Below the pieces are notes generated by a model. The model was not told where the DNA came from, made no database searches, and saw only the letters and a program-made list of their open reading frames with translations. From positions 1 to 18,554 of the forward strand of contig JAJZUH010000021.1 of NCBI GenBank assembly GCA_021847165.1: a DNA stretch of 18,554 nucleotides, in the 5' to 3' direction. This document shows, piece by piece, positions 13,876 through 17,200 of this stretch. Position numbers and translations under genes: made by a program. The DNA is from Pseudomonadota bacterium (GTDB lineage Bacteria > Pseudomonadota > Gammaproteobacteria > Burkholderiales > Gallionellaceae). How positions within the stretch are numbered: the first letter of the stretch is position 1; every line of letters begins with the position of its first letter.

Positions 13876-14002
13876 TCGGCCCGGGACCAACACGAACGTC
13901 GCCGAGGCTGCCCTCATGCAAACGGGCTTGTCCCATCCGGGCAGGTGTCGGTCAAGTGTGCAAGAATTGCAGTAAGTCTCGCTCGATCTGACAGGAGGAA
14001 AG

Positions 14003-15283
14003 ATGGGGGCACAAGCTATCCAGGGGTATCCGGTCCTGATCATCGGAGCAGGGCGTGGCGGTACCGCGCTGCTCGAGATGTTCATGGAGGACGGTCTGGT
14101 CAGTGTCGTGGCCATGGCGGACATGAACCCGGATGCTCCCGGCCTCGCATTGGCGAGAACGCACGGAATCCCGACCTATACCGATGCGGTCGCGGCACTG
14201 CAAGCCTGCAAGGGTTATCCCGACTGCATCGTATACAACCTGTCGCACGACGATACGATCGCCGAAGAGGCATTCCGGATATTCGGCGACCGGCGGGTGG
14301 CAAGCGGTCTCGAAGTCAAGCTGTTCTGGCAGATGGTGACGAACCTGAAACAGACCAAGGGAGACCTTGAAAAAAGCCAGAACCAGCTGCAATCCATCAT
14401 CAGCAACGTGATGGACGGCATCATCACGATCAACGAGTCGGGCGAGATACAGGGGTTCAACCCGGCGGCCGAGGATATCTTCGGCTATTCGCAGCAGGAA
14501 GCCCTGGGCAAGAATGTGCGGATATTGATCCCCGAGCCCCAGCGCAGCGCACATGATGCATATATCGGCCGGTATCTGCAGACGGGCCGGTCGCACATAC
14601 TCGGCGTGCGCGGCCGCGAACTGGTGGCGGTGCGCAAGAACGGCGAAGAGTTCCCCATGGAGATTTCCATATCGGAAATGGTGCTGGGCGGACATCGCTA
14701 TTTCATCGGTATCGTGCGGGATATCACCGAGCGCAAGCGGGCCGAGCAGAAGATTGCCCATCTGGCGCACTACGACTATCTGACCGACCTGCCGAACCGC
14801 GCATTGTTCCTGGACATCCTCGATCATTCGGTGGCGCTGGCGAAACGCAACAAGAACAAGGCAGCCGTCCTGTTCCTCGATCTGGACGGCTTCAAGCAGG
14901 TCAACGATACCCTGGGACACGATGCAGGCGATCAGTTGTTGAAAGGGGTCGCCAGAAGGCTCAAGGAAACCATCAGGAGTTCGGATACGGTGGCACGGGT
15001 CGGCGGTGACGAATTCATCCTGGTGCTGGACAACATCGGGGCGGAAGAGCACGCGGCACAGGTGGCGGGAAAGATCATCGGCGCCCTGGCGGTGCCGTTC
15101 GAACTGCCCGGCCAGGAATGCCGGATCGGCGGCAGTATCGGCATCTCCATGTATCCGGACGATGCCAGGGAGACCTTGAAACTCATCAAACAGGCGGATG
15201 AGGCCATGTACCTGGCGAAGCAGGGCGGCAAGAACACCTGCCGGTTTTACCGCGAGGTAGCGGCACCGCGCACCGGCGTTTGA
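14003..15283 (+). CDS. Diguanylate cyclase: Rossmann-like domain, FixL-type PAS, GGDEF
   Basis: This is a 426-residue soluble-looking protein with an unusual domain order. Residues 9-115 form a Rossmann-like nucleotide-binding fold: strand VLIIGAGRGG with GxGxxG (15-20), an acidic residue at the end of strand 2 (Asp40 in VVAMADMNPDAPG) and a further alternating pattern. A short coiled linker (116-128) leads to a PAS domain (about 128-248) very like the oxygen-sensing PAS of FixL. His184 (RSAHDAY) aligns with the haem-ligand His, with Arg190, His198 and Arg205 at known distal/heme-contact positions. The GGDEF domain (about 255-418) has intact GGDEF (334-338) and the inhibitory RxxD site (Arg325-Asp328), so it should make cyclic di-GMP with feedback control. 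AGGAGG lies 5 bases before the ATG. Haem binding and ligand of the Rossmann part are inferences. Confidence 0.93.
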   Translation: MGAQAIQGYPVLIIGAGRGGTALLEMFMEDGLVSVVAMADMNPDAPGLALARTHGIPTYTDAVAALQACKGYPDCIVYNLSHDDTIAEEAFRIFGDRRVASGLEVKLFWQMVTNLKQTKGDLEKSQNQLQSIISNVMDGIITINESGEIQGFNPAAEDIFGYSQQEALGKNVRILIPEPQRSAHDAYIGRYLQTGRSHILGVRGRELVAVRKNGEEFPMEISISEMVLGGHRYFIGIVRDITERKRAEQKIAHLAHYDYLTDLPNRALFLDILDHSVALAKRNKNKAAVLFLDLDGFKQVNDTLGHDAGDQLLKGVARRLKETIRSSDTVARVGGDEFILVLDNIGAEEHAAQVAGKIIGALAVPFELPGQECRIGGSIGISMYPDDARETLKLIKQADEAMYLAKQGGKNTCRFYREVAAPRTGV

Positions 15284-15380: not shown

Positions 15381-16307
15381 CTAGGCGGTCAGGTGCAGCG
15401 CTTTCGATACCACCTCGCGCGTCAGGTGCGGCGCGAACAGTTCGATGAAATGATAGCCGAAGCCGCGCAAATATTGATTCTTGCGGATGGCGATGCGCGT
15501 AGTGCTGGGCTGGAACAGATGGCCGGCATCGATCATGCGCAGCTGGCGATCGCGGTCGGGGATGAAAGCCATCTGCGCGACGATGCCGATGCCCAATCCC
15601 AGCTCCACATAGGTCTTGATCACATCGGCATCGATTGCGGTCAGTGCGATGTTGGGCTCGATGCCGGCTTCGCTGAACGCCTGGTTGATCTTGTTGCGTC
15701 CGGTGAAGGCGAAGTCGTAGGTAATGATGGGATATTGCGCCAGTTTCTTCAGGGTCAGGCGTTTCTCCTGCAGCAGCGGATGCCTGGGGGGCGTCACCAC
15801 GCAGTGATGCCATTCGTAACAGGGCAGGGTCACCAGTTCGTCATACAGTGCAAGGCTTTCCGTGGCGATGCCGATATCCACCTCGCCGTTCAGGACCTGT
15901 TCGGCGATTTGCGTCGGGCTGCCCTGGTGCAGGCCGAGCTTCACGCCCGGATAGTGCAGGGTGAATTCCTTGACCACGCGCGGCAGGGCATAACGCGCCT
16001 GCGTGTGCGTGGTGGCGACGGTGAGTGAGCCGCTGTCCTGGGTGCGGAATTCGTCGCCGACCTGTTTCAGGTTCTCCGTTTCGTGCAGCATGCGCCGGGC
16101 AATCTCCAGCACGGCCTTGCCGGGGTCGGTGATGGCGACGATACGCTTGCCGTTGCGCACGAAGATGTCGACGCCCAACTCTTCTTCCAGCAGCTTGATC
16201 TGCTTGCTCACCCCCGGTTGCGAAGTATAGAGCGCATTGGCGGCGTCCGAGATGTTCAGGCCGCAGCGCACGATCTCGTTCAGGTAACGCAACTGTTGCA
16301 GGTTCAT
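15381..16307 (-). CDS. cysB: LysR-family regulator CysB
   Basis: This is a 308-residue LysR-type activator of sulfur assimilation. The N-terminal helix-turn-helix is at about 18-45 (NISDAANALYTSQPGVSKQIKLLEEELG region). The inducer-binding region has TTHTQARYALP, with Thr100, Thr102 and Gln103, the positions that contact sulfate or acetylserine in characterised CysB. It also has GLGIGIVAQMAF. It probably activates the divergent TSUP/siroheme reductase genes when sulfide is scarce and represses itself, as known in enterobacteria. AAGGAG precedes the ATG at the usual distance. A TATAAT is seen at 16333-16338 on the minus strand. The Cbl paralogue is the alternative; CysB fits better. Confidence 0.94.
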   Translation of the reverse strand: MNLQQLRYLNEIVRCGLNISDAANALYTSQPGVSKQIKLLEEELGVDIFVRNGKRIVAITDPGKAVLEIARRMLHETENLKQVGDEFRTQDSGSLTVATTHTQARYALPRVVKEFTLHYPGVKLGLHQGSPTQIAEQVLNGEVDIGIATESLALYDELVTLPCYEWHHCVVTPPRHPLLQEKRLTLKKLAQYPIITYDFAFTGRNKINQAFSEAGIEPNIALTAIDADVIKTYVELGLGIGIVAQMAFIPDRDRQLRMIDAGHLFQPSTTRIAIRKNQYLRGFGYHFIELFAPHLTREVVSKALHLTA

Positions 16308-16318
16308 GAGGCCGCTCC

Positions 16319-16370
16319 TTATATATCCATTAATTATAAGATATTAACATAAAAGTATTTAGATATATAA
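16319..16370. promoter_or_regulatory. Divergent cysB/TSUP control region with a 9-bp inverted repeat
   Basis: TTATATATC (16319-16327) and GATATATAA (16362-16370) are perfect reverse complements, about 43 bases centre to centre, close to four DNA turns. The region is strongly AT-rich compared with its surroundings. The left arm overlaps the expected cysB transcription start and the right arm sits at the -35 area of the TSUP promoter. This is the layout expected for CysB self-repression and divergent activation, but the match to a CysB consensus cannot be judged by eye. Confidence 0.45.
16333..16338 (-). promoter_or_regulatory. -10 element of cysB promoter
   Basis: The minus strand reads a perfect TATAAT about 26 bases before the cysB ATG, between the two arms of the inverted repeat. 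The -35 is weak (TAAATA, 17 bases upstream), consistent with a regulated or modest promoter. Confidence 0.55.
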
Positions 16371-16381
16371 AGAGCCGGACC

Positions 16382-16387
16382 TAGAAT
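16382..16387 (+). promoter_or_regulatory. -10 element of the TSUP/reductase promoter
   Basis: TAGAAT matches the -10 consensus at 5 of 6 positions and lies about 31 bases before the TSUP ATG. No convincing -35 is present (TTAGAT at 17 bases). A missing -35 is typical of promoters that need an activator such as CysB. Confidence 0.5.
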
Positions 16388-16417
16388 GCGTCCCGTGGCA
16401 GTGATCGAGGTGCGCAA

Positions 16418-17200
16418 ATGGATGGTCTATACACAGTCTCCGGCTTTCTGGTCGGCCTGATCGTCGGGGTAACCGGCGTCGGTGGCGGGTCGTTGATGAC
16501 CCCGTTGCTGGTGCTGCTCTTCGGCGTCGCGCCGGCGACGGCGGTCGGCACGGATCTGCTGTATGCCTCGCTCACCAAGGCGCTGGGAGGCTGGGTGCAT
16601 GGCCGCAACGGTACGGTCGACTGGAAAGTGGTCGGCCTGTTGAGCCTGGGCAGCCTGCCGGCGGCACTGCTCACCGTCATCTTGCTGAAACTGCTGGCGC
16701 TGGATGAAAAGTCGCTGCGCGGCCTGGTGACCGGCGTACTGAGCATCGCGCTGCTGCTGACGGCCGCGGCATTGCTGTTGAAAGACCGGATCAAACGGAT
16801 CGCCCTGCGCAGCGATGGCACGGTATATGAGCTGCACCACCGGCGCCTGCCCGCAGCGACCGTGGCCACCGGTTTCATCGTCGGCGCACTGGTGACGGTC
16901 TCTTCCATCGGCGCCGGTGTGCTGGGTACGGTGGCGCTGCTGTTCCTGTATCCGCGCATGGGAACAGCCAGGGTGGTGGGGACGGATATCGCGCATGCCG
17001 TACCGCTCACCGCCATAGCCGGCCTGGGACACATGGCGCTGGGGACGGTGGATTTCGTGCTGTTGGGCAGTCTGTTGCTGGGATCCTTGCCGGGCATCTA
17101 TATCGGCAGCCATCTGAGCGCGAAGGTGCCGGAAAAGGTATTGCGCCCGATCCTGGCAACGATGCTGTTGCTCATCGGTACCCGGCTGGTTTTGAATTGA
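16418..17200 (+). CDS. TSUP-family (TauE/SafE) membrane transporter, probably sulfur compound
   Basis: This is a 260-residue inner-membrane protein of the sulfite exporter TauE/SafE family (TSUP). It has about eight hydrophobic segments and the two family repeats: LIVGVTGVGGGSLMTPLLVLLFGV near 13-37 and a second ALVTVSSIGAGVLGTVALLFLYP copy near 162-185, each followed by a VGTD motif (VGTDLLYA, VGTDIAHA). TSUP proteins move sulfite, sulfonates or other organic anions; direction and substrate cannot be read. GAGG lies before the ATG. It precedes the siroheme reductase by 11 bases, so a sulfur-related anion such as sulfite or sulfate is a reasonable inference. Confidence 0.9.
   Translation: MDGLYTVSGFLVGLIVGVTGVGGGSLMTPLLVLLFGVAPATAVGTDLLYASLTKALGGWVHGRNGTVDWKVVGLLSLGSLPAALLTVILLKLLALDEKSLRGLVTGVLSIALLLTAAALLLKDRIKRIALRSDGTVYELHHRRLPAATVATGFIVGALVTVSSIGAGVLGTVALLFLYPRMGTARVVGTDIAHAVPLTAIAGLGHMALGTVDFVLLGSLLLGSLPGIYIGSHLSAKVPEKVLRPILATMLLLIGTRLVLN

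Follow-up and report, generated by a model that had tools for sequence, protein, structure and literature searches.

What does a Rossmann-like domain do at the N-terminus of a diguanylate cyclase? The question is raised by a gene in the window, by which we mean the whole stretch of 18,554 nucleotides analysed here (contig JAJZUH010000021.1 of the Gallionellaceae assembly GCA_021847165.1). The encoded protein carries such a domain in front of a PAS and a GGDEF domain. On balance, we lean towards an answer in which the N-terminal domain is a sensor responsive to nicotinamide adenine dinucleotide, NAD(H), which is devoid of the catalytic half of its enzyme relatives and acts on the GGDEF domain through a continuous helix. 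The presence of this domain on several kinds of signalling protein in iron oxidisers and some other bacteria suggests an undescribed sensor of cellular redox state, where "undescribed" refers to the open-licence literature searched by title and start of abstract. The gene and the parts of its first domain are as follows:

14003..15283, forward strand: whole gene of the Rossmann-PAS-GGDEF protein, 426 amino acids (open reading frame, Pfam; relatives with identical architecture)
14003..14362, forward strand: N-terminal Rossmann domain, residues 1-120 (AlphaFold model with a mean predicted local distance difference test score, pLDDT, of 89.4; matches in NCBIfam, PDB, Foldseek and VIA; Pfam cut-off reached by some relatives)
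14045..14062, forward strand: GAGRGG (GxGxxG) dinucleotide-binding loop, residues 15-20 (conservation; position after strand 9-14)
14120..14122, forward strand: Asp40, the acid immediately after strand 2, predicted to bind the adenosine ribose and to select NAD over NADP (conservation; strand 33-39)

In the predicted model of this domain, a strand (residues 9-14) leads into the GAGRGG loop, followed by a helix (18-29), a second strand (33-39) and Asp40. This is a beta-alpha-beta unit whose GxGxxG joins strand 1 to helix 1, with an acid of the NAD type at the end of strand 2; an aspartate after strand 2 favours NAD(H) over NADP(H). The NCBIfam acetaldehyde dehydrogenase profile matches residues 10-79 (E=2.9e-7), with positions 7-77 of its 303 being covered. 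The score of 30.1 bits lies far below the curated cut-off of 166, and the match includes neither the catalytic domain nor the whole enzyme. PDB chain 8ih7 matches the domain with E=1.9e-4, and the top-scoring solved folds are NAD domains of acetaldehyde dehydrogenase, followed by Gfo/Idh/MocA dehydrogenases and the NADH sensor Rex. No Pfam family exceeded its cut-off for the Rossmann domain of the window (best GFO_IDH_MocA, E=0.092), and at E<=1 the whole protein matched PAS-type and GGDEF families only, none of them before residue 127. Among eight relatives scanned, L067 and L074 pass the cut-off of PF01408 and L075 that of PF03447. As scanned, neither Pfam nor NCBIfam yielded a family dedicated to this input domain, and full-length VIA matches were taken up by GGDEF chains, giving little information on the Rossmann part. 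Profile, PDB-sequence and fold searches thus agree on the Rossmann-like N-terminus proposed in an earlier note on this DNA, and together with the conservation and the predicted model they indicate more than a chance resemblance.

The loop and the acid, both pointed out in that note, are highly conserved. In the best 120 of 501 homologues from the first protein search (P0002-P0121, where P0002 is the window protein itself), residues G15, G17, G19, G20, D40, N79, G102, E104 and W109 are identical in all 120, and R18 is kept in 118. In an alignment of 21 domains drawn from different architectures, the most distant sharing 26% identity with that of the window, G15, G17, D40, A45, A51 and G102 were still invariant, and the third loop glycine, G20, was near-invariant.

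Two observations temper the assignment of NAD(H) as the ligand. The sequence alone does not settle the ligand, because a PurN-like protein scores as high by hhalign (91% over 52 columns, versus 87% for acetaldehyde dehydrogenase and 0.4% for LysR as an unrelated control), and Arg18 in the loop would seem to leave room for another phosphate-bearing adenosine ligand. The best surviving alternative is a sensor of energy charge instead of NADH/NAD+, with an adenine nucleotide such as AMP, ADP, ATP or ADP-ribose bound in the manner of RCK/KTN domains. We hold this to be unlikely, as NAD domains of dehydrogenases head the sequence and Foldseek matches and few members reach TrkA_N. It also appears improbable that ligand binding was lost and the domain serves for dimerisation or as a scaffold. 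Such a role would suit diguanylate cyclases, which work as dimers, and NAD domains of dehydrogenases are often involved in dimer contacts; but few residues are as well conserved across classes and architectures as the binding loop and the acid, which would be unexpected for a scaffold. We give little credence to a sensor of coenzyme A (CoA) or acyl-CoA, with CoA bound as in the CoA_binding (succinyl-CoA synthetase) family. Acylating acetaldehyde dehydrogenases do use CoA, and CoA_binding (PF02629) is touched by three of the 21 members at E<=0.01 (best E 2.5e-4; the window member is not among them); however, the NAD-binding GFO_IDH_MocA profile is touched by 14 of them (E<=0.01) and DapB_N by 10, and the invariant acid after strand 2 is a feature of NAD binding. 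Of the dehydrogenase- or CoA-binding-like pattern described in the earlier note, the CoA half is the less favoured one. Finally, a PurN-like (formyltransferase-fold) remnant binding a phosphoribosyl metabolite, for example a purine intermediate, is very unlikely: the NPDAPGLxxAxxxGI motif is common to the Rossmann domain and the PurN-like protein with the high hhalign score, and PDB PurN 3kcq matches with E 0.0026, but the alignment is confined to the said 52 columns, the three PurN-like sequences read (L026, L027 and L077) have neither the third loop glycine nor the acid at position 40, and NCBIfam PurN is touched by one of the 21 members.

The protein had also been regarded as a single odd one, which did not hold. 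Titled genome records were scanned, and in the best 80 of 94 loci we found 81 domain-bearing frames: 61 Rossmann-PAS-GGDEF, 17 Rossmann-GGDEF, two with the domain only and one Rossmann-PAS (contig ends or frameshifts may have truncated the latter three). In L069 and L071, a region without Pfam match separates the Rossmann and GGDEF domains. As an input module, the Rossmann domain recurs in at least four architectures, and several of these lack PAS.

This module is common in Gallionellaceae and Mariprofundaceae, both families of iron oxidisers. In Gallionellaceae, 61 of 120 genomes sampled contain the domain at E<=1e-10 (41 of the 86 genomes that are >=90% complete with <=5% contamination), and named relatives belong to Sideroxyarcus, Sideroxydans, Gallionella and Ferrigenium; one copy is present in the window's own genome, which is 69% complete. 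In Mariprofundaceae, 60 of 74 genomes (32 of 36 of good quality) contain up to four copies, and the Zetaproteobacteria detected in the genome-record scan include Mariprofundus and Ghiorsea. The PAS-GGDEF form is also present in the methylotrophs Novimethylophilus and Methylobacillus (Methylophilaceae), so the module is not confined to iron oxidisers. A match at E<=1e-10 is present in 30 of 300 genomes from the window's order; in 15 of them it is below E 1e-35 (six in the window's family), and the other 15 have open frames of 126-285 amino acids, mostly shorter than 180. A wider sample of Pseudomonadota, the phylum to which the survey applies, gave matches in 107 of 349 genomes at E<=1e-3, weak hits to other proteins included, and another protein search, the third, gave 17 close relatives.

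A tree of 96 domains (119 columns, quick method) was built after 53 of 149 had been dropped as near-duplicates; domains shorter than 85 residues and L026, L027, L028 and L077 had been excluded earlier. Although 41 of its 93 inner branches remained open, the PAS-GGDEF label needs 4 changes on the tree compared with 29.8 when shuffled, which indicates that architectures are clustered; the direction of transfer is not settled by the tree. As for mobile elements, a full-length scan of IMG/VR viral contigs gave six loci, with PAS/GGDEF matches from residue 129 onward, and a domain-only scan confirmed no Rossmann domain there by the patterns used. On plasmids, a single weak match was obtained, to an acetaldehyde dehydrogenase. 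Excluded as module members were G050, G053 and G054, weak matches from outside the family and presumably two PurN-like proteins and one acetaldehyde dehydrogenase, and L077, which is PurN-like on reading and was left out of the counts.

Several further forms of the domain were observed. L067 (Mariprofundus aestuarium) is a 1013-residue hybrid kinase of the order Rossmann-GAF-histidine kinase-two receivers-GGDEF-like, whose terminal domain reads RVDEF in place of GGDEF and may be inactive. In L072, L073 and L076, from other Pseudomonadota families, the domain is joined to a short, apparently soluble signalling domain of methyl-accepting chemotaxis proteins (MCP; about 214-246 amino acids); MCPsignal was found by Pfam in L072 (E 5.3e-19) and assigned by reading alone in L073 and L076. 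Short Rossmann proteins which look stand-alone occur in the window's order (L075, G584, G638, G693, G720, G569, G489 and others), and the Pfam cut-off passed by L075 is that of NAD_binding_3. On contig C153 of G002 (2317-2653), the domain is split over two frames, through assembly error or in a broken gene.

The remaining features of the gene, including those through which a sensed state might reach the cyclase, are as follows:

13993..13998, forward strand: AGGAGG ribosome-binding site (sequence)
14309..14407, forward strand: continuous helix, residues 103-135, from the last Rossmann helix to the PAS N-cap, a predicted signalling helix (full-length AlphaFold model, pLDDT about 65-72 there)
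14366..14752, forward strand: FixL-type PAS domain, residues 122-250 (Pfam PAS/PAS_9; FixL PDB chains, E 4.3e-33)
14552..14554, forward strand: His184, in HDAYIGRY, aligned with the FixL haem histidine (alignment to 1dp6)
14570..14572, forward strand: Arg190, aligned with a FixL position occupied by Ala in chain 2cmn (FixL alignment; conservation)
14615..14617, forward strand: Arg205, aligned with a FixL position occupied by Ala in chain 1y28 (FixL alignment; conservation)
14756..15247, forward strand: GGDEF (diguanylate cyclase) domain, residues 252-415
14975..14986, forward strand: I-site RxxD (RSSD), residues 325-328 (row conservation)
15002..15016, forward strand: GGDEF signature, residues 334-338 (row conservation)

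The full-length AlphaFold model contains three domains (pLDDT 83.7; predicted template-modelling score 0.50). No transmembrane segment is evident on reading the sequence, to which no dedicated membrane predictor was applied, in line with the lack of a predicted membrane part stated in the earlier note. In this monomer model, the helix 103-135 connects Rossmann and PAS domains, and a second helix (242-256) leads into GGDEF. Trp109 and the Asp of the motif at the GGDEF start (D-x-LT) are 20 residues apart in each of the 23 PAS-less rows that allowed scoring; the other nine of 32 lack the Trp pattern. Rows with PAS have a distance of 149 in 43 of 59 cases, and of 148 (five rows), 152 (two), 142 (two) or 137 (one) in others, six being unscored. 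Spacing and helices fit signal transmission via a helix of fixed register, with the helix stretch itself predicted at moderate confidence.

Pfam placed PAS at residues 128-241 (E 6e-20) and GGDEF at 255-411 (E 9.9e-50). The haem type of the PAS domain, suspected before, is supported by its homology to FixL: His184 aligns with the histidine of FixL HDSYISRY, which we take to be the haem histidine, and Arg190 and Arg205 with FixL arginines, the chains 2cmn and 1y28 presumably being FixL mutants of haem-signalling residues. His184 is present in 115 of the 120 best homologues and, among 68 non-identical full-length rows selected for containing both PAS and GGDEF, in 58 (two of the ten exceptions are gaps). 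Arg190 is an arginine in 96 of the 120 and 46 of the 68, and Arg205 in 115 and 58, respectively. GGDE occurs in all 68 rows, with F as the final residue in 67 and Y in one, and the I-site R and D are likewise kept in 68 of 68; both sites are kept in 117 of the 120 best homologues, with gaps in three. Signature and I-site are intact in the window protein too, so that, judging from these motifs, an active, product-inhibited diguanylate cyclase is expected. Because several architectures are without PAS, oxygen sensing cannot be regarded as a constant feature of the system.

The haem histidine is replaced, or the PAS loop is decayed or absent, in L131 and L135 (Methylophilaceae) and in L118, L126, L127, L129, L130, L132, L137 and L153; the last may be a broken or misassembled frame, its domain being divided between two frames. 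UniRef gives the name "Sensor protein FixL" to the diguanylate cyclases P0003, P0066 (partial name) and P0082, which is misleading, as the domains found include no kinase.

The model we propose builds on the computed domain order, predicted fold, motif conservation, modular reuse and fixed helix spacing in PAS-less members, and it assumes NAD(H) as the ligand, discrimination of its redox state, a sign of regulation and a physiological output. According to the model, the protein would be a diguanylate cyclase of the cytoplasm in which two sensory inputs are stacked. The first of them, the N-terminal domain, would be the NAD-binding half of a dehydrogenase, retained for binding after the catalytic half had gone, and would act like the NADH-sensing half of Rex and not as an enzyme. 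NAD(H), or at least an adenosine-ribose dinucleotide, would be bound at GxGxxG and Asp40. Its occupancy, or the NADH/NAD+ state, could alter the terminal helix of the domain in angle or register; this helix would continue into the FixL-type haem PAS domain, or straight into GGDEF in shorter relatives, and its shift would change the geometry of the GGDEF dimer and hence the synthesis of cyclic di-GMP (c-di-GMP). In microaerophilic iron oxidisers, a sessile/motile or stalk-forming switch might in this way be tied to reducing power and, in the PAS form, also to oxygen. NADH binding and the coupling of redox state plus oxygen to c-di-GMP, as first suggested in the earlier note, are plausible but unproven. 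More tentatively, and as something we regard as possible rather than probable, the domain may be a reusable, hitherto undescribed NADH/NAD+ sensor, Rex-like in working and separate in sequence, that neutrophilic iron oxidisers from two classes have placed in front of both c-di-GMP and two-component outputs, while other families have the MCP-fused form. The PAS form would add a haem oxygen sensor to the same cyclase. Both sides of the Fe(II)/O2 gradient, electron supply and oxygen, would then jointly set c-di-GMP and the sessile, stalk-forming state.

Neighbouring genes were compared in 110 loci (L001-L030 and L082-L161, flanks of about 1.5-2.5 kb), which include the window's L001 and some of which share contigs. 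MurJ was found in at least 16 and a LysR regulator in at least 12 of them; these neighbours suggest no function, and inference from operons was dropped. In the window, at 15381-17200, a LysR-type regulator (Pfam LysR_substrate) is divergent from a gene that reads as TauE/SafE-type transporter-like.

Control of c-di-GMP by oxygen (through haem), by light and by the redox state of flavins is already known. A Rossmann sensor that places c-di-GMP directly under the control of the nicotinamide pool did not surface in the literature searched, where no title or abstract start deals with such a protein, and the absence of a characterised Rossmann-PAS-GGDEF protein, supposed in the earlier note, is consistent with this. 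BdcA is reportedly an NADPH-binding protein of biofilm dispersal. The module would give a new input-domain family for annotation, some members now being named "Sensor protein FixL" or plain diguanylate cyclase, and would make the proposed c-di-GMP control of stalk formation and attachment in Zetaproteobacteria directly testable. In the accessible portions of the paper concerned, such control is proposed and a sensor of redox state is not named (PMC8250860). Another paper, in its available text, remarks on the many GGDEF/EAL genes of Sideroxydans ES-1 and Gallionella ES-2 (PMC3770913), and the word "Rossmann" is absent from the available text of the Gallionellaceae pangenome paper (PMC10734462). 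The inputs named in a 2022 review of c-di-GMP sensing are haem, hemerythrin, flavin-PAS and disulphide redox, and its main text as available does not contain the word "Rossmann" (PMC8846402); a 2025 review, likewise available in part, covers redox control through PAS domains with flavin adenine dinucleotide, FAD (PMC12540587).

Among known systems, AxDGC2 and RmcA, in the available parts of these two reviews, also tie reducing power to c-di-GMP, but they use FAD in a PAS domain and not a dinucleotide-binding Rossmann domain (PMC12540587; PMC8846402). The haem PAS oxygen sensors FixL and DosP resemble the window protein in its FixL-type PAS domain with matching His and two Arg; the window protein differs by its GGDEF output and by the Rossmann domain before PAS, and the His is absent in 10 of the 68 rows of relatives. 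The NAD domain of acylating acetaldehyde dehydrogenase (DmpF/MhpF/BphJ type) is the best match in both sequence and fold, whereas the catalytic half is absent from the window protein and position 40, Asp in the window, is Gly in the 8ih7 alignment. Rex, finally, carries a winged-helix DNA-binding domain, which is not among the Pfam matches of the window protein, where the Rossmann fold begins as early as residue 9; the outputs of the module are instead GGDEF, histidine kinase or MCP.
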